Origin: Bradyrhizobiaceae bacterium
GTDB taxonomy: Bacteria; Pseudomonadota; Alphaproteobacteria; Rhizobiales; Xanthobacteraceae
Length of the DNA: 33,220 nucleotides
Assembly: GCA_947481635.1 (NCBI GenBank)
Contig: CANKHJ010000031.1
Coordinates: 1-33,220 of the forward strand
Direction: 5' to 3'
Within the stretch, counting starts at the first letter, position 1; each line of letters opens with the position of its first letter. Positions 23,194-33,220 of this stretch are shown here, in pieces. Below the pieces are notes generated by a model. It was given only the letters and a program-made list of their open reading frames with translations, did not search any database and was not told where the DNA came from. A program made the position numbers and the translations under genes.

Positions 23194-25508
23194 GCGGCAC
23201 CGGGCGTGCGCGCGAACAGGATGCGTTCCGGCGTCAATGGCAGCGTCGACAAGCGCGCGCCGGCGCCGAGCGCATGCGCGACCGCATTGCCGACCGCCGC
23301 CGCGACGCCGGAGGGGCCGACTTCGCCGACGCCCTTGATGCCGAGCGGATTGGTCGGAGACTTTTCCTTCTCGATCACGATCGCGGTGATCGGCGGCGCG
23401 TCGTGGACCGAGGGCAGCAGATAATCCGCGAAGGTGCCGGTCAGCAGCACGCCTTGCTGGTCGTAAGCCAGCTCTTCGAGCAGCGTGCCGCCCAATCCCA
23501 TCACGACGCCGCCAACGATCTGGCCCTCGACGATCATCGGATTGATCGCGGTGCCGACATCGCAAGCCACCAGATAGCGTTCGACGCGGATCTTGCCGGT
23601 CTCTTCATCGACCGCCACGTCCGCAAGATGCACCGCGAACACGCTGGTCCCGCCGGGCACCGCGCGGATGTAGCTGGTCGAGGTGAGACCATCATTGTCG
23701 ACGATGTTGGCGACCGGCGGTGGCGGCATCAATTCCGGATTGCCCGGCAGCAGCAGGCGGGCGACGCTGCCGAGCGTCATCCCCATCTCCTTGGCGCCGA
23801 GCAGCTCGATCCGGCCGTCGATCAGTTGCAGATCGTGTTCGGCGACTTCCAGCTTCTGCGCGACGGTGCGGATTGCCTTTTCCTTCACCGTGAGCGCCGC
23901 GGCATAGACCGCATGGCCTGACATCACCGCGGTGCGGCTGGCGTATGAGCCGCCGCCAAACGGGATCAGGCCGGTATCGCCGTGGCGCACGGTGATGCGC
24001 TCGATCGGAATCGTGAGCACCGCCGACGCCACCTGGGCCAGGCTGGTTTCGTGTCCCTGGCCCTGCGAAGAGCAGCCGCTGAACACCTGCACGTTGCCGT
24101 GCTGGTCCACCTCGATACGCGCGCCTTCGAACGGGCCGAGGCCGGACGGCTCGACCAGCACCGCGAGGCCGCGCCCGCGCTTGATGGGGCCTTCGGATTT
24201 CGGCAGCGGCTTGTCCCAGCCGAACTCGGACAATGCGCGTTCGAGCACGGCCGGAAAATCGCCGCTGTCGAAGATCGTCGGACGCTTGACGCTTTCGGTG
24301 CCGACCGCCCAGGGCAGGTCCGCCGGCGGGATGAGATTGCGCCGGCGAAACTCGGCGCGATCGATGTTCAATTTGTCCGCGAGGAGATCCACCGCGCGTT
24401 CGCGCGCGAAATTCGCCTCGAACATGCCGGGCGCACGCAGCGTGCCGCTCGGCGTCTTGTTGCTCAGCGCGGCGATCGCATGGACACGGTAATTCCGGAT
24501 CCGATAGGGGCCGGGGAATGACGCGGAAGCGTGCGAAGGAACCACGTCACCGTGGGTACGGATATAGGCGCCGAGGTCGGACACCAGCCGCACGTCGAAG
24601 GCGGTGATCATGCCTGCGGCATTGGCGGCGGCGACAACCTCGAACCGCATCTCGCGCGAGTGATTGATCGCCGAGAAATGCTCGTAGCGATCCTCGATCC
24701 AGCGGATCGGCTTCCCGATGCGCAGCGCAACCCACGGGATCAGGAAGTCTTCCGGGTAGAACTCGCCGCGCGCGCCGAAGCTGCCGCCGACGTCGGGCTC
24801 GATGAAGCGGATCGAGCCTTCCGGCATCTTCAGCATCGTGGCGAGCAGCGCGCGGTTGGTATGCGGCACTTTAGTCGGGCCGAACACTTCCAGGCTGTGA
24901 CGCGCACGGTCGTAATGCGCCAGCAATCCGCGGGTCTCGAGCGGCATCGCCGAGTGGCGCTGGATCGAGAAGGTATCGCGCACCACGGCGGCAGCGGTCG
25001 CGATCTCGGCATCGACATTGCCGATGTCGAAGGTCCATTGCGAGGCGATGTTGCCGGCCGGATGGAGCTTCTGGCTGTCCGGATTGAGCGCAGCGACCGA
25101 GTCCGGCACCGGCGGCAGCGGCTCCCACGTAATGTCGATCAGTTCGGCGGCGTCTTCGGCAATCGCGCGCGAGGTCGCGATCACCACCGCGATCGGATCG
25201 CCGACATAGCGCACGACGTCGCGCGCCAGCACATGCTGGAGAAACGGCGCCATGTCGCCATGGCACGGGATGCGGCAGGGAATGGCCGTCAGCCCGGCGG
25301 GCAGGTCGGCCGCCGTGACGATGTCGATCACGCCGTCGAGGCTCTTGGCCGCCTCCAGGCTGACAAAAGTCATCCGCGCATGCGGATGAGCGCTGCGGAC
25401 GATGACGGCTTCATAAGCGAAAGGGAGCTTCAAATCGGCGACATAGCGTCCTTCGCCGCGAAGGAAGCGTTCGTCTTCCAGCCTGAGAGCGCGCGCGCCG
25501 ATGGTCAA
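23190..25508 (-). CDS. Molybdenum hydroxylase large subunit, molybdopterin-binding (XDH/CoxL family)
   Basis: Catalytic subunit with the molybdopterin cofactor, 772 residues, a normal length. Two family domains are visible: the a/b hammerhead at about 15-125 (RFLRGEGRYVADL...) and the cofactor-binding domain, with SRTAVMSGH, GCSSQGQGHETSLAQVAS and the catalytic base E729 in KGVGEVGPSG. The active-site loop reads EPSGLGPFEGARIEV, not the VAYRCSFR loop of form I CO dehydrogenase, so it is not a CO oxidiser; it should hydroxylate an organic ring or aldehyde. It begins with TTG at 25508; no ATG or GTG gives a better start, and the RLEDERFLRGEG sequence right after it is the family's normal beginning. 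Upstream lies a 231-nt gap. Confidence 0.93.
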   Translation of the reverse strand: MTIGARALRLEDERFLRGEGRYVADLKLPFAYEAVIVRSAHPHARMTFVSLEAAKSLDGVIDIVTAADLPAGLTAIPCRIPCHGDMAPFLQHVLARDVVRYVGDPIAVVIATSRAIAEDAAELIDITWEPLPPVPDSVAALNPDSQKLHPAGNIASQWTFDIGNVDAEIATAAAVVRDTFSIQRHSAMPLETRGLLAHYDRARHSLEVFGPTKVPHTNRALLATMLKMPEGSIRFIEPDVGGSFGARGEFYPEDFLIPWVALRIGKPIRWIEDRYEHFSAINHSREMRFEVVAAANAAGMITAFDVRLVSDLGAYIRTHGDVVPSHASASFPGPYRIRNYRVHAIAALSNKTPSGTLRAPGMFEANFARERAVDLLADKLNIDRAEFRRRNLIPPADLPWAVGTESVKRPTIFDSGDFPAVLERALSEFGWDKPLPKSEGPIKRGRGLAVLVEPSGLGPFEGARIEVDQHGNVQVFSGCSSQGQGHETSLAQVASAVLTIPIERITVRHGDTGLIPFGGGSYASRTAVMSGHAVYAAALTVKEKAIRTVAQKLEVAEHDLQLIDGRIELLGAKEMGMTLGSVARLLLPGNPELMPPPPVANIVDNDGLTSTSYIRAVPGGTSVFAVHLADVAVDEETGKIRVERYLVACDVGTAINPMIVEGQIVGGVVMGLGGTLLEELAYDQQGVLLTGTFADYLLPSVHDAPPITAIVIEKEKSPTNPLGIKGVGEVGPSGVAAAVGNAVAHALGAGARLSTLPLTPERILFARTPGAA

Positions 25509-25739
25509 AGGTCAGCCTGTTGATCTGCTAAGTCGAGGTGATGGGCCATGCCTTCGGTTTATCGGTTCGACGAACCTTTAAGCCTGCGAGAAAGCATGCG
25601 GTCTGCTCGCGGATGCGCTCCGACCTTGCATAGGGCCCGCTAAACCGGCTGTAAATTGAAATACTTGTTCCAGTTATAACCGATGCGACTAGCGCGTTTC
25701 GCACGCGAAAAATACTCCGGTGCCGGCCCGCCCTGAGGC
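25509..25739 (-). promoter_or_regulatory. Gap upstream of the molybdenum hydroxylase operon
   Basis: This 231-nt stretch holds no convincing gene. It contains the most A/T-rich patch nearby (about 25650-25690), probably a minus-strand promoter for the hydroxylase genes, and a perfect palindrome TTTCGC-AC-GCGAAA at 25697-25710, immediately after the UGSC gene. The palindrome could be an operator; the TTTTT next to it on the minus strand could also weakly end the UGSC transcript. No standard -35/-10 pair is clear. Confidence 0.4.
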
Positions 25740-27497
25740 TCAGTCCGATCCGCCGAACCGCTTTGTCCAGGCGTCGGATACGGTGACGGCCTTGGACACG
25801 TTCAGGCCCTGTTCGCCGATCTGCCCCGCAATGAAGTTCCGGTTGCGATCGGGCGATCCGGCGACGACGATGTAGAATTCCTCCGGCTTATGCACGACCG
25901 GAACCATGCGGTTCGGATCGTCGCTCAGGGCGAATTCTGCGGACAACCGTCCGGCCTTGACCGCCTGATGCAGATTCAGGCCGCTCTGCGATCGGTTGAG
26001 GCGATCGTCGAATTGCCAGGCGGGCACCTTGGCGTGCTCGAACAGGAAGCGCCGCACGTCGTCCTTGGAATAGCCGGCGCGCGCGATGATGCCGGCCACC
26101 AGCGGCGACAGGCAGATGATCGGCGAGACCTCACCGCCGAAATGCTCCATGTGGTACAGGATCGAGCCGCCCAGCTCGCGCGACACTTCATAGGCGATGT
26201 GGCGGAGATGCTGTTCGGCGTCGCCGATCGACAGGAAGCTGTGGCTGATGACGTCGGCGGATTGCACCGTGACGACGTTGTCGCCGGCGGCAAATCCGCG
26301 ATCGGTGCTCGACGGCGGCCAGGGGCTGAGATCCTCAGCCTCGGCCAGCACCGGATAATAATTGCGCCCGAACGACGCCATGTCGGTTTCGCCGAGGCGA
26401 TAGCCGGCGATATTGAGCAGGCATAACCGCAGGAAACGGCTGACGCTCATATTCGCCTGGGTCTGCGGCAGCATCACGCCCTGGCCCGACGCGAATCCCA
26501 ATTGTTTGATGATCGGGCCGTTCAACAGGATCAGCGGTGTCCAGCCCGCAGTGCTGCCGATATGTTCGACACCAAAGCGCGGATCCGCAATCGCTTCGAC
26601 GATCGCCAGCATCACCGGTATGTATTCGGGCTTGCAGCCGGCCATCACGCCATTGACCGCCACATTCCAGACCGTGGCGTTCAGGTTCTTCGGCTTCAGC
26701 ACGCCGATCACCTCCTCGGGCGAGCGGTCGGTGAGGCTGAGCATCTCGTCGACCAGGTCGAGGGTCGGCGGAACGATCGGCAATCCGTCGCACCAGACAT
26801 TCTTGACGAAATGCGCGTTGATCTCCTGGAGGTCGCCCTTGAACACGATCTCGCGCGCCGCCTTGGCATTCGAGAGGCTTGCCGCTGGCGCTGCGCCGCG
26901 TCGCGGCGTTATCGCGACCGGCGTGGTCAACGCCGCGATCACCGCGTCGATCAGGTCGGCCGCCATCGCCTGCACCTCCTCGGTGCTTTTGACAGCGATG
27001 TTCGGCGGCGGCATCTCGACGATCCGCGTGTCGCTCAGCCCTTCGGCGCGCGCGACCATGCGGACGGTGTTCGAGAATCCCTGGCAGACCATCCCGACAG
27101 CAGGAATGCCGATGCTCTCAGTCCATGTGATGGCCCGCGACACGGCGGGCGAGCAGGTCCCTCAACAACCGGGCGCGGCGATCAATCCATCGATCCGGTA
27201 TTCGCGCAGGATCTCCGGAAGCGTCCGGTCGGGATAATTGCCCCAGCTTAGCGTGCGGCCGGACGGCAGGTTGAAGAACTCCATGCCGGCGAAGCGCTTC
27301 GCCAGCAGGTCGGCAAAGGCAGCAAGCAGGATGTCGCCATTCCTGAAATTGGTCCAGATGAAGCCGATCCGCTTGCCGGTAAGATCGCCGAGCGGGGCCG
27401 CCGGCGCGAAGCCGCGTGTCGCGCGCGCTGATTCGGATTTGGTCTCGGGCGCCATGCCGACGGGACTGACGACTTCGTAAACCGGCTTGTCCGACAT
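25740..27497 (-). CDS. UGSC-family selenoprotein (UGA at codon 112 read as selenocysteine)
   Basis: One 585-residue gene interrupted by an in-frame UGA (27162-27164). The first 111 codons end IDGLIAAPGC; the frame then continues past the UGA as GTCSPAVSRAITWTES for 473 more codons with no other stop. The resulting Cys-Sec-Gly-Thr-Cys (111-115) is a variant of the U-G-S-C motif that names the UGSC family, and the flanks fit: a strand-forming DGLIAAPG before it and E127 with GIPAVGMVCQGF after. The second frame has only a GTG start without ribosome site, and the start at 27497 has AGAGGA 6 nt upstream. A SECIS-like hairpin follows the UGA. The C-terminal part (about 190-585), with NLNATVWNVAVNGVMAGCKP, is conserved in appearance but unknown to me. 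UGSC function is unknown; a thiol/selenol redox role is inferred. It follows a Bug gene by 49 nt. Confidence 0.82.
27133..27150 (-). promoter_or_regulatory. Bacterial SECIS-like stem-loop after the internal UGA
   Basis: On the mRNA, starting 11 nt after the UGA, GCCCGC pairs perfectly with GCGGGC around the 6-nt loop CGUGUC. A G is the second loop base, 19 nt from the UGA. Bacterial SECIS elements are short hairpins directly behind the UGA with a G among the first two loop bases and 16-37 nt spacing, so this fits. It lies within the coding sequence, as usual in bacteria. SelB binding is inferred, not shown. Confidence 0.65.
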
Positions 27498-27546
27498 TGG
27501 CAGTCCTCTTGGGCGATCCTCGTGTTGCGCTGTCTCCGACGACGGA

Positions 27547-28521
27547 TCAGTCGACCTTGATATTCCCGTCCTTGACGATCTTGCGATAGACCGCAAGATC
27601 GCTCCGGATCTTTTCGACGAACTCGGCCGAGCTGCTGCCGATCAGTTCGAACGCGAAGGTCTCGTTGCGCTTCTTCACCTCGGCATCGTTCAGCGCCTTG
27701 GCGAATTCTTTTTGCAGGAACTGGACGATCGGAGCCGGCGTGCCGGCGGGCGCGAAGATGCCGACGCTGATGTCGATGCCGATGCCGCCGAGACCGGCCT
27801 CGGCGAAGGTCGGCACATTCGGCGTCTTCGGGTTGCGCGTTGCGCCGGCATAGGCGAGCGCCTTCAGCGTGCCGGCTTCCAGTTCGCCGCTGACGCCGGT
27901 GATGGTGCTGACGGTCATGTCGATATGGCCGGCCAGCAGCGCCGGCTTGAGCTCGGCATTCCCCTTGTAGGGAATGTGGACCAGGTTGGTGCCGGTCTGG
28001 AGCTTGATGCGCTCGAAACCGAGATTGTGAACGCTGGCGCTGCCGACCGTTCCATAGCTCAGGCCACCGGCTTTGGACTTGGCCAGCGCGAGCATCTCCG
28101 CGACGGTGTTCGCCGGGAAGTCCTTGTTGACGACGATGTAGAAGTCCTGCCGCGTCACCTGCGTGACCGGAACGAAACTCGTCAGCGGATCATACGGGAC
28201 TTTGGCGAGCAGGGCGGGGTTGATCGCGAAATGGCCGTTGTCGGCAATCCAGAGCGTATGGCCGTCCGCCGGCGACTGCATTACGGCCTCGGCGGCGATG
28301 AAACCGTTTCCGCCCGGACGATTCTCGACCACGACCGGCTTGCCAAGGTTCTTCTCGATCGCCTGGGCCAGCAGCCGCGCGATGATGTCGGATGTGCCGC
28401 CGGCCGCGTAGGCGATGATCAGCTTGATCGGCCGGGTCGGGAAATCCTGGGCCAGCGCCGGGTTGCAGGTGAAGGCAAATGCCAGTGCGCCTAGCGCTGA
28501 GACAAGTCGACGAATGCTCAT
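27547..28521 (-). CDS. Bug/TctC-family tripartite tricarboxylate receptor
   Basis: Periplasmic solute-binding protein, 324 residues. The Sec signal peptide MSIRRLVSALGALAFAFTC is cut after PALA, before QDFPTR. Bug motifs: IAYAAGGTSDIIARLLAQAI, VVENRPGGNGFIAAEAVM, SPADGHTLWIA and VHIPYKGNAELKPALLAGHI. An ATG at 28533 four codons upstream is a possible alternative; earlier in-frame codons would precede the signal peptide without reason. It is the first gene of the minus-strand cluster, 49 nt before the UGSC selenoprotein gene, and is transcribed away from the NicX-like gene. It probably delivers the compound handled by the hydroxylase. Confidence 0.9.
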   Translation of the reverse strand: MSIRRLVSALGALAFAFTCNPALAQDFPTRPIKLIIAYAAGGTSDIIARLLAQAIEKNLGKPVVVENRPGGNGFIAAEAVMQSPADGHTLWIADNGHFAINPALLAKVPYDPLTSFVPVTQVTRQDFYIVVNKDFPANTVAEMLALAKSKAGGLSYGTVGSASVHNLGFERIKLQTGTNLVHIPYKGNAELKPALLAGHIDMTVSTITGVSGELEAGTLKALAYAGATRNPKTPNVPTFAEAGLGGIGIDISVGIFAPAGTPAPIVQFLQKEFAKALNDAEVKKRNETFAFELIGSSSAEFVEKIRSDLAVYRKIVKDGNIKVD

Positions 28522-28629
28522 AGGTTTCTCCATCGCGGCCTGGCAGGGTTGGCGCGACCCTATTGCCAAGGCGCTGGTCCGGGTAGCATCAATCCGGCGA
28601 TGCGATAGCCAAATGGAATATGTCGAAAG

Positions 28630-28655
28630 CGGACAGGCATTCCGTGGCATGTCCG
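28630..28655. promoter_or_regulatory. Inverted repeat in the Bug/nicX-like divergent promoter
   Basis: CGGACA (28630-28635) and TGTCCG (28650-28655) form a perfect inverted repeat with a 14-nt spacer, 34 nt before the plus-strand start codon in the 167-nt divergent gap (28522-28688). A regulator binding here could control both operons. No regulator gene lies next to it. The ribosome site of the plus-strand gene is GAGGTGAGAG directly before the ATG. Confidence 0.35.
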
Positions 28656-28688
28656 GGCGGATATGGTCCGTTGGCAACGAGGTGAGAG

Positions 28689-31464: not shown

Positions 31465-31607
31465 TATCGATGGCCGGTGCGAATTCCGCATGATAATTGT
31501 GTGGGTCTCGACTGCGCGGAAACGTTGCGCTTTCGAGTGGCGTTTTGACCGAGCGCCCGAGAGGCCGACCGGATCAACCGGTAGCGCGTATGGTCTTGGG
31601 GTGCCCG

Positions 31608-33220
31608 ATGGGTGATCTGGGGGATTTTGCGCGGCGGCTCAGCCGCGCCGGAACGGCTGCGGCGGACTCGACCAAAAACCCGACCAATAACAAGCCGACC
31701 AAGCGCCGTCGCGCGCTCGGTATCATGGCGCTCGAACCGCGCATCATGTTCGACGCCGCAGCCGCCACGACCGCCGCCGATGTTACAAATCATGCCGACG
31801 CGGCAGCCGATCACGCGGCCGTCGCTGCGGCCGAGCAAGCCGCCCCGCAGCCGGCGCATCAGGAAGCGGCTCACCAGGCAGCGGCCTCGCCGGGAACCAG
31901 CAACGACCATGACATCAACCCCGCGTCGGTCGAAGCCGCCACGGCGCCGGTGGTGCGCGACCTCGTCATCATCGACTCCGCCGTTCCCGACGCGCAGACA
32001 CTGATTGCGGGTCTCAAGGAAGGATCGCGCGCGTTCATCCTCGATAGCAGCCGCGACGGTCTCGCGCAGATCGCCGAGATCATCGACGCCAATGGTCTGC
32101 ATGATCTGTCGTCGATCCAAATCCTGTCGCATGGCCGCGAAGGCCAGGTGCGGGTCGGTTCGACCACGCTCACCGCCGCGGATCTTCCCGGACACGCCGA
32201 CGCCCTCGCTGCGATCGGCGCCTCGCTCGCGGCCGATGGCGATATCCTGCTCTATGGCTGCGACGTCGGCGCCAATCCGGCCGGCGCGCAGTTTCTCAAC
32301 GACCTCGCGCGCCTGACTGGCGCCGACGTCGCGGCCTCGACCGACCTGACCGGCGCGGCGGCGCGCGGCGGCGACTGGACGCTGGAGGCTTCCAGCGGCC
32401 AGATCGAGGCCGGCCTGCCGATCGCGGCGGCGGCGCTGGACAGCTACGACCATCTGTTGATCGGCACGAGCACGCGCTACGCGGACAACACTTTGGTCGT
32501 TTTAGACGGCAGCTTTGCCGAGACCTCGATCGTCGTGTCGGGCGCCGATCCGTATCTCTACGACCTCAATGTCCAGACCTTCATCCAGCATCCAGCGGCA
32601 GGCGACCTCAGAATCAGAATAACGTCGCCGTCCGGAACTTCGGTCACGCTGACCGATCGCAATGGCGGCTCGAACGCCAACGTTTTCAACGGGACGATCT
32701 GGGACGACAGCGCCAATCCCGGCGGACAGGTGCCTTACGCCAGCAACAATGGTCTGGTGACCGACCAAGTCTACGCAAATAACGTGGTGGTCCCCCGGCT
32801 GGTACCGCAAGGCGCGCTCGGCGCCTTTATCGGAGAGAATCCGAACGGAACTTGGCGAATCCAGGTCGACAAGATCGGGTCGTCGGTTGGCACGCTCAAC
32901 GGATGGTCGCTCGACCTGACGACATTGCCAGAGGCCCCGCCAAAGTTGAGCCAGACTTTCGGCAACACGACGCCCATTGCCATCAATAACAATACGGTCA
33001 TCGCCTCGTCGATCTTTGTTTCTGGCGCCCGGAATGCGGTGCTCGACTTGGACGTTCAGACATTTGTCAGGGCTAATTTACCGGCCGACATGATCATGAC
33101 CTTGACCTCTCCGTCGGGTACGGTCGTGACACTGACGTCGCAGAATGGCCTTGCTTCTTCTTCTGATCTCACCAGCTCTTTCAACGGCACCATCTGGAAT
33201 GACGATGGCGCGAAGCTGGC
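31608..33220 (+). CDS. DUF4347 large surface protein with P-domain-like repeats (5' part, runs off the window)
   Basis: The first 537 codons of a protein that continues beyond the window. Residues 30-35 are basic (PTKRRR), followed by the LEPRIMFDA motif at 42-50 that begins many giant DUF4347 adhesins. An Ala/His/Gln-rich linker (51-112) leads to the DUF4347 domain (about 117-270): VIIDSAVPD, ILSHGREGQV with H175, DILLYGCDVGAN with C218, and LTGADVAASTD. From about 285 come proprotein-convertase P-domain-like modules of about 161 residues with FNGTIWDD and LTSPSGT motifs; one is complete and the second is cut by the window end. No classical signal peptide is seen, so type I secretion is likely. 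ATG 31590, in frame, is an alternative start. Confidence 0.85.
   Translation, partial: MGDLGDFARRLSRAGTAAADSTKNPTNNKPTKRRRALGIMALEPRIMFDAAAATTAADVTNHADAAADHAAVAAAEQAAPQPAHQEAAHQAAASPGTSNDHDINPASVEAATAPVVRDLVIIDSAVPDAQTLIAGLKEGSRAFILDSSRDGLAQIAEIIDANGLHDLSSIQILSHGREGQVRVGSTTLTAADLPGHADALAAIGASLAADGDILLYGCDVGANPAGAQFLNDLARLTGADVAASTDLTGAAARGGDWTLEASSGQIEAGLPIAAAALDSYDHLLIGTSTRYADNTLVVLDGSFAETSIVVSGADPYLYDLNVQTFIQHPAAGDLRIRITSPSGTSVTLTDRNGGSNANVFNGTIWDDSANPGGQVPYASNNGLVTDQVYANNVVVPRLVPQGALGAFIGENPNGTWRIQVDKIGSSVGTLNGWSLDLTTLPEAPPKLSQTFGNTTPIAINNNTVIASSIFVSGARNAVLDLDVQTFVRANLPADMIMTLTSPSGTVVTLTSQNGLASSSDLTSSFNGTIWNDDGAKL

Follow-up and report, generated by a model that had tools for sequence, protein, structure and literature searches.

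The Interrupted Reading Frame

The question raised by this locus is whether two apparent genes on the minus strand, which a mechanical list of open reading frames gives as 27162-27596 and 25740-27143, are 2 genes, one damaged gene, or a single gene in which an internal UGA is read as selenocysteine (Sec). The locus lies in what we call the window, the whole stretch of 33,220 nucleotides analyzed, which is the entire contig C31 of genome G000 (4.9 Mb in 338 contigs). An earlier note, made from the letters alone, had held that the 2 frames are one, separated only by the UGA at 27162-27164, and that they encode one selenoprotein of the UGSC type. Translation of the minus-strand frame 27497-25740 with TGA as U agrees, since stops occur at just 2 places, codon 112 (27164-27162) and codon 586 (the terminal TGA, 25742-25740), and reading through the former reproduces the motif the note had described, C111-U112-G-T-C115.

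The features are collected in Table 1. The AGAGGA ahead of the ATG at 27497 is a plausible ribosome site as read from the sequence, and inspection of the sequence 5' of the GTG at 27143, the only start then left to the downstream half, finds no ribosome site at normal spacing, as the note had also said. GC content at codon positions 1, 2, and 3 differs little across the UGA, being 0.61/0.52/0.79 on one side and 0.63/0.45/0.84 on the other. An Rfam search of 25500-27800 gives 3 matches at E ≤ 5, each far below gathering, and PADLOC finds 0 families. ARAGORN calls a tRNA-Ser (gga) at 32350-32441, within a long open frame, 31497-33218, that continues past the window end; either the tRNA or the frame is likely spurious.

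Table 1. Features of the locus, in window positions
Feature	Positions	Strand	Basis or remark
Complete selenoprotein gene	25740..27497	-	585 residues, ATG to terminal TGA, one in-frame UGA; homologs open through the site
Sec112 codon TGA, motif C-U-G-T-C (residues 111-115)	27162..27164	-	TGA or Cys at aligned homologous sites
SECIS-like hairpin, stem GCCCGC/GCGGGC (27150-27145 with 27138-27133), loop CGTGTC (27144-27139)	27133..27150	-	Folding, conservation
Ribosome-site-like AGAGGA ahead of ATG	27504..27509	-	Read from sequence
UGSC domain (residues 10-191)	26925..27470	-	Pfam PF24696; predicted flavodoxin/Rossmann-like alpha/beta fold
C-terminal domain (residues 215-585, about 370 aa)	25743..26855	-	Without Pfam match, without clear PDB relative
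TctC/Bug solute-receptor gene, directly upstream, 49-nt gap to ATG	27547..28677	-	Same strand as selenoprotein gene

The Sec Codon in Homologs and Paralogs

A pattern search of a genome collection yields at least 80 homologous loci, whose record titles name Proteobacteria, Chloroflexi, Acidobacteria, Actinobacteria, Firmicutes, and other phyla. The Sec site can be read 97 times in these loci and, among the matches listed, it is TGA in 83, Cys in 13, and TAG in 1. A second set comes from genomes of the same family, of which 30 of 248 have a match at E ≤ 0.001, and here the aligned codon is TGA, TGC, or TGT, with ATG once; the 2 sets overlap slightly, L023 and L089 being one gene. Among homologs with Cys, the nearest (L024-L028, at 37-39% identity) have C-C-G-A-C in a single frame open across the site, so that the in-frame UGA aligns to Cys as the note had anticipated. 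The closest relative among the matches listed, L072 from a Burkholderiales MAG at 57%, has TGA at the equivalent codon and the same C-U-G-T-C. With Cys at codon 112 in an open frame in the former and TGA there in the latter, the read-through pattern is more than chance.

The note had called both the Thr of the motif and the Cys before Sec unusual, and on this point the homologs disagree with it. Among the matches listed, 52 fused UGA relatives have Cys before Sec in 28 cases, Ala in 16, and Gly in 5, and Sec-Gly is followed by Ser in 40, by Thr in 5, and by Ala in 4, so both are common variants in the fused subfamily.

In G000 the Pfam model of the UGSC domain matches 3 genes, and in all 3 the matched stretch contains a single TGA. 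Besides the window gene, there is a UGSC fusion on contig C46 with the motif L-U-S-T-C and a stand-alone UGSC gene on contig C6 with D-U-G-S-C. The latter lies directly behind a gene (L022, G000:C6:2222-4224) whose product has an N-terminus with C-P-T-C fused to the C-terminal domain also present in the window protein. The C-P-T-C had raised the suspicion that this N-terminus is thioredoxin-like, which is unproven, as it has no Pfam match and phmmer finds a PDB thioredoxin only at E = 0.54. The single TAG is at the Sec codon of a fused UGSC gene of Blastococcus endophyticus (L114), which keeps a hairpin-like sequence behind it. UAG-encoded Sec has been reported in Geodermatophilaceae, with UGSC-motif proteins included, in the accessible text of PMC5330540, and L114 fits that report.

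A SECIS-Like Hairpin behind the UGA

The bacterial SECIS is described in general terms, in the part of PMC1088965 available, as a hairpin just downstream of the UGA with a small loop containing G. The window gene has such a hairpin in that place, its loop starting at nucleotide 21 when the U of UGA is taken as 1. Because its folding energy is no better than that of shuffles (z = 0.38), the evidence for it consists of position and conservation. In scoring hairpins, we require the loop to start at nucleotides 20-24 and draw the line at a score of at least 14. Among the matches listed, that score is reached by 70 of 80 distinct UGA rows, with the other 10 below it, versus 0 of 13 Cys rows (Mann-Whitney p = 1.8 × 10−8, ignoring relatedness). 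The same-family set has 16/16 for UGA versus 1/21 for Cys. The 13 Cys rows are mostly poor peptide matches. A closer control is given by the five C-C-G-A-C rows (L024-L028), whose peptide is nearly unchanged: their scores are 3.5-12, and 3-4 of their 6 stem pairs remain. One stand-alone UGSC gene, L069 of genome G052, is a Cys copy with a hairpin score of 16.5 in a genome with Sec machinery, and is perhaps a recent Sec-to-Cys change.

Conservation was followed in 54 aligned rows, being the window and 53 plus-strand TGA rows that have P1 as best query and a bit score of at least 250 among the matches listed. Stem cells are paired in 91.7%, versus 32-53% when the partner is slid by 1-3 columns. 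Shuffles reach the observed value in 1/500 for paired cells, 0/500 for both-side cells, and 1/500 for the covariation score; on the remaining two of five measures, the number of pairs changed on both sides and the number of pair types, the stem is not above shuffles (470/500 each). The outer stem pair changes from G-C to A-U in 8 rows. Third-position entropy over the stem-loop, taken for this and for the residue counts above from 52 of the 53 TGA rows with the window excluded, is 0.62, 1.15, 1.00, 0.14, and 0.68 at codons +5 to +9, and 3 of these 5 values are the lowest among 59 codons compared. The residues at codons +5 to +9 are well conserved too; equally conserved codons outside the stem-loop are free at the third position, with 1.44 at Gly +1, 1.64 at Gly +18, and 1.74 at Pro +20.

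Selenocysteine Machinery

The selA, selB, selC, and selD genes that the note had proposed to look for are all found in G000: selB at 420 bits, selA at 595 bits, selD at 430 bits, and a Sec tRNA, each above its cut-off. The anticodon of this tRNA is tca, confirmed by ARAGORN, a check made on the window genome only. Across the 30 homolog-bearing genomes, a Sec tRNA of at least 73 bits and selB over its cut-off mark the identical 15. The Rfam gathering score for the Sec tRNA, 47, is passed by 28 of the 30; we use the line of 73 bits because no score falls between 54.6 and 73.8, and take matches below it as tRNA-Ser. Both selB and the Sec tRNA are present in 10 of 11 genomes in which a UGA copy was seen versus 5 of the 19 others, which include G020 where no UGSC site was read (Fisher p = 0.0017, uncorrected for phylogeny).

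With the UGSC domain passing its Pfam model, the Sec machinery, the Cys homologs, and the hairpin all in hand, we are highly confident that the locus encodes one polypeptide, a two-domain protein of the UGSC superfamily, whose UGA is decoded as Sec by selABCD via the downstream hairpin. The single UGSC selenoprotein is what the earlier note had claimed, and none of the observations it had named as refuting this was made; the C-terminal domain was not part of its account.

Two other genomes deserve mention. G014, the exception among the 11 genomes with a UGA copy, carries a UGA-bearing UGSC gene with hairpin (L053), and its draft, rated 99% complete, has no selB over the cut-off and a best Sec tRNA match of 48.4 bits. 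In Xanthobacter aminoxidans, at L058 and beyond (G144:C77:115500-132461), about 17 kb hold a fused UGSC gene together with a TrxR-like gene and C-domain genes, and with selB and the Sec tRNA each in a second copy, as if in a transferable Sec cassette.

Domains and Predicted Structure

PF24696 matches the window protein with 82.8 bits against a gathering cut-off of 25. The NCBI equivalog model NF041046 (UGSC_fam), with a curated cut-off of 125, is passed by the stand-alone UGSC protein of G000 at 133.7 bits and failed by the window protein (64.6) and the C46 fusion (64.2), so that both fused members of the genome fall under NCBI's UGSC cut-off. We take the window protein on this account to belong to a sister branch of UGSC with an extra C-terminal domain. 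When family members are scanned against Pfam, 49 of 52 match UGSC, the other 3 (L144, L146, and L150) being C-domain-only; for the C-terminal domain the scan gives no family, with otherwise at most 4 of 52 members matching any one family and a best E of 0.0052. Of the alignments used, A2 holds the window and 51 of the at least 80 loci, excluding partial, TAG-bearing, and near-duplicate loci, with L132 (TAG) and L139 (frame shift, extra stops) dropped; A3 is without L078, and A4 has 29 loci. The C-terminal domain occurs in relatives also alone or behind a different N-terminus, and in some the UGSC and C-terminal domains are 2 separate genes. In those two-gene relatives that were read, the UGSC domain is whole, with Sec or Cys, which puts the break elsewhere than at the UGA.

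The fused protein is predicted with a mean pLDDT of 90.2 and a pTM of 0.92, and the model places Sec112 between the strand 104-110 and the helix 115-128. Fold matches of the UGSC domain are of Rossmann, flavodoxin, and receiver types, with a VIA Z of 10.9 over 127 residues for a designed protein and at most 9.6 for natural ones; many unrelated folds score close together against it. A thioredoxin fold is absent among the fold matches listed for the model of the window protein, and a missing match proves nothing. Still, the predicted Rossmann-like fold disagrees with the guess of a Trx-like fold in the text available of PMC2398784. The C-terminal domain modeled alone has a pLDDT of 93.9. A fold search of PDB with the whole model or the C-terminal domain gives no match at E ≤ 0.001, and by sequence no PDB entry comes below E = 0.08 with the fused protein, a PrdB/GrdB profile, the UGSC domain, or the C-terminal domain as query. 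The best fold match of the C-terminal domain, a class I fumarate hydratase (E = 2 × 10−3, TM 0.25, VIA Z 5.4 over 92 residues), was rejected as too weak.

Kinship with Proline and Glycine Reductases

A clue to function comes from a scan of 52 family members against NCBIfam at E ≤ 1, in which, among the matches listed, PrdB is matched by 31 (best E = 1.7 × 10−4), GrdB by 13 (best 2.2 × 10−3), GrdF by 11, and GrdH by 8. The window protein itself has no match at E ≤ 1 to the PrdB, GrdB, and TIGR01918 models and reaches no cut-off, and the C46 fusion has none at E ≤ 0.01 to PrdB/GrdB-type models; the stand-alone UGSC protein of G000 matches GrdF at 0.0034 and GrdB at 0.0044. In the reverse direction, the UGSC model was tried on three PrdB/GrdB-type proteins: GrdB (L155) and PrdB (L163) of Geosporobacter, each above its own cut-off, match at 1.8 × 10−5 and 2.3 × 10−5, and a PrdB-like protein of Chloroflexi (L156) has no match at E ≤ 0.01. 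A single hhalign comparison joins the UGSC domain to PrdB/GrdB at 97.3%, E = 2.2 × 10−11, with Sec column on Sec column and U-G-x-C aligned, and the C-terminal domain as a control gives 0.3%. Judged from these profiles, the UGSC domain is distantly related to the Sec domain of PrdB and GrdB.

The likeness to PrdB and GrdB (TIGR04483, TIGR01917, TIGR01918) thus comprises the profile kinship, Sec at the aligned place, and an E..GIP after the helix, and L155 even has the same U-G-T-C as the window protein. The window protein differs in having no PrdB/GrdB match of its own and in its second domain. Against a profile of three GrdE/PrdA sequences, the C-terminal domain scores 0.5% (the UGSC domain gives 18.8%, E = 0.0012), and the fused domain is therefore without likeness to the pyruvoyl-type partner. 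A further comparison is FarB, a GrdB-like protein proposed for monofluoroacetate dehalorespiration in Synergistota (PMC10838667, as far as its text is available), which shares a GrdB-type Sec nucleophile with a proposed attack on the polarized carbon of a small carboxylate, but works with a separate GrdE-like partner, FarE, and has no fusion. We found no published statement of the UGSC-PrdB/GrdB kinship in the open literature, subscription papers and database notes lying outside that search. What is new here is this kinship and the TrxR link described next; the family itself is known, and the gene is a fused variant of it.

Gene Neighborhood

TctC genes flank L072 on both sides, as one stands next to the window gene. 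Such genes are numerous in genomes of this kind, several being in the window, so the TctC link is the weaker one and may be background. A recurrent neighbor is a TrxR-like gene. By tblastn recount, with many loci ending at contig ends, a TrxR-like match of at least 200 residues is found in 22 of 80 loci among the matches listed, from several phyla and 21 of them on the same strand, and C-x-x-C is kept in 22 of 22. G000 has 19 matches to the TrxR model, none on the window contig; of the 2 that score above 250 bits, one neighbors the C46 paralog, where a TrxR-like gene, the UGA-bearing UGSC fusion, and selB follow in a row on one strand (G000:C46:11815-16349). The ORF-based count of neighbors is a lower bound because it missed TctC in L072 and TrxR in L089. 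By that count, 12 of 80 loci among the matches listed have another C-domain gene next downstream; in L081, L085, L092, and L097 a TrxR-like gene comes directly after it.

Proposed Mechanism and Alternatives

Sequence and gene neighbors suggest a reductive bond cleavage like that of the proline and glycine reductases. The scheme we have in mind would begin with the TctC receptor encoded next door delivering a substrate, probably a carboxylate, which the C-terminal domain would bind and polarize. The Sec112 selenolate would then attack an electrophilic carbon and break a carbon-heteroatom bond, Cys115 (U-x-x-C), perhaps aided by Cys111, would displace the product to leave a selenenylsulfide, and an NADPH-dependent partner of the TrxR type would restore the selenol. 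We arrive at this from homology, motif, and neighbors, and infer from them the substrate, its activation, and the electron route. The underlying chemistry of PrdB and GrdB is in part general background. An outline of the GrdB/GrdA chemistry is found in the accessible portion of PMC13188914.

The selenoprotein reading together with such a PrdB/GrdB-like mechanism, TctC-delivered carboxylate and TrxR-type electrons included, is the one toward which we lean, by a little better than an even chance. More tentatively, and with the odds somewhat against it, UGSC plus the C-terminal domain may form a widespread and unrecognized branch of the proline/glycine reductases, driven by NADPH through TrxR, contained in one polypeptide, and opening imported organic acids reductively. 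If true, a new substrate-activating domain takes over the place of the pyruvoyl subunit in soil and water bacteria. The PrdB/GrdB link, the recurrent TrxR-type neighbor, and the conserved C-terminal partner would make of an orphan family an enzyme open to test, for which both a chemistry and an electron donor are predicted.

The alternative that survives best keeps the selenoprotein and makes it a general thiol-disulfide or peroxide oxidoreductase, as the Trx-like reading would have it, instead of a reductive bond-cleaving enzyme. The TrxR-like neighbors would suit this equally, C-U-x-x-C gives neighboring thiols, and the partial text of PMC2398784 describes UGSC as likely Trx-like in fold. 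We think it unlikely, with a real minority chance, as the predicted domain matches the flavodoxin, Rossmann, and receiver types given above and as it leaves the large conserved C-terminal domain and the PrdB/GrdB kinship unexplained.

Any UGA-Sec codon yields some termination, and the UGA might on that account be a switch that allows the full-length enzyme when selenium is plentiful and otherwise a truncated product of 111 residues with regulatory value. That is quite improbable, because the short product stops ahead of the catalytic residue and nothing points to a function for it. Least probable of all, to the point that we set it aside, is a UGA that is a true stop between 2 genes, a pseudogene, or a Cys codon misread in sequencing: the ORF list and the two-gene relatives would suit a split, but UGA is at the same codon in many phyla and in 3 of 3 UGSC-domain genes of G000, the hairpin and its wobble constraint lie behind it, the GTG is without a ribosome site at normal spacing, and the two-gene relatives that were read keep the UGSC domain whole.

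The UGSC Family in the Literature and in Annotation

UGSC selenoproteins have been published since 2008, and in that marine survey they are fifth of 51 prokaryotic selenoprotein families by number, with 255 sequences (Table 2 of PMC2398784, in the part available). The window protein shares with the UGSC family (PF24696; NF041046) the domain, the position of Sec or Cys, and the U-x-x-C motif, and differs from it in falling below NF041046, in U-G-T-C for U-G-S-C, in the Cys before Sec, and in the C-terminal fusion of about 370 aa. A UGSC fusion with a domain named "Unknown_1" is reported in the same 2008 text (PMC2398784, in the part available). Where a homolog lies in a plasmid record (24 of them), the match falls on features named "hypothetical protein," and one record adds "UGSC family (seleno)protein." The latter is the Halalkalicoccus jeotgali plasmid NC_014299.1 (H3), where the match covers a hypothetical protein together with the UGSC family (seleno)protein, and the two-domain pairing may by this pair of features extend to archaea.
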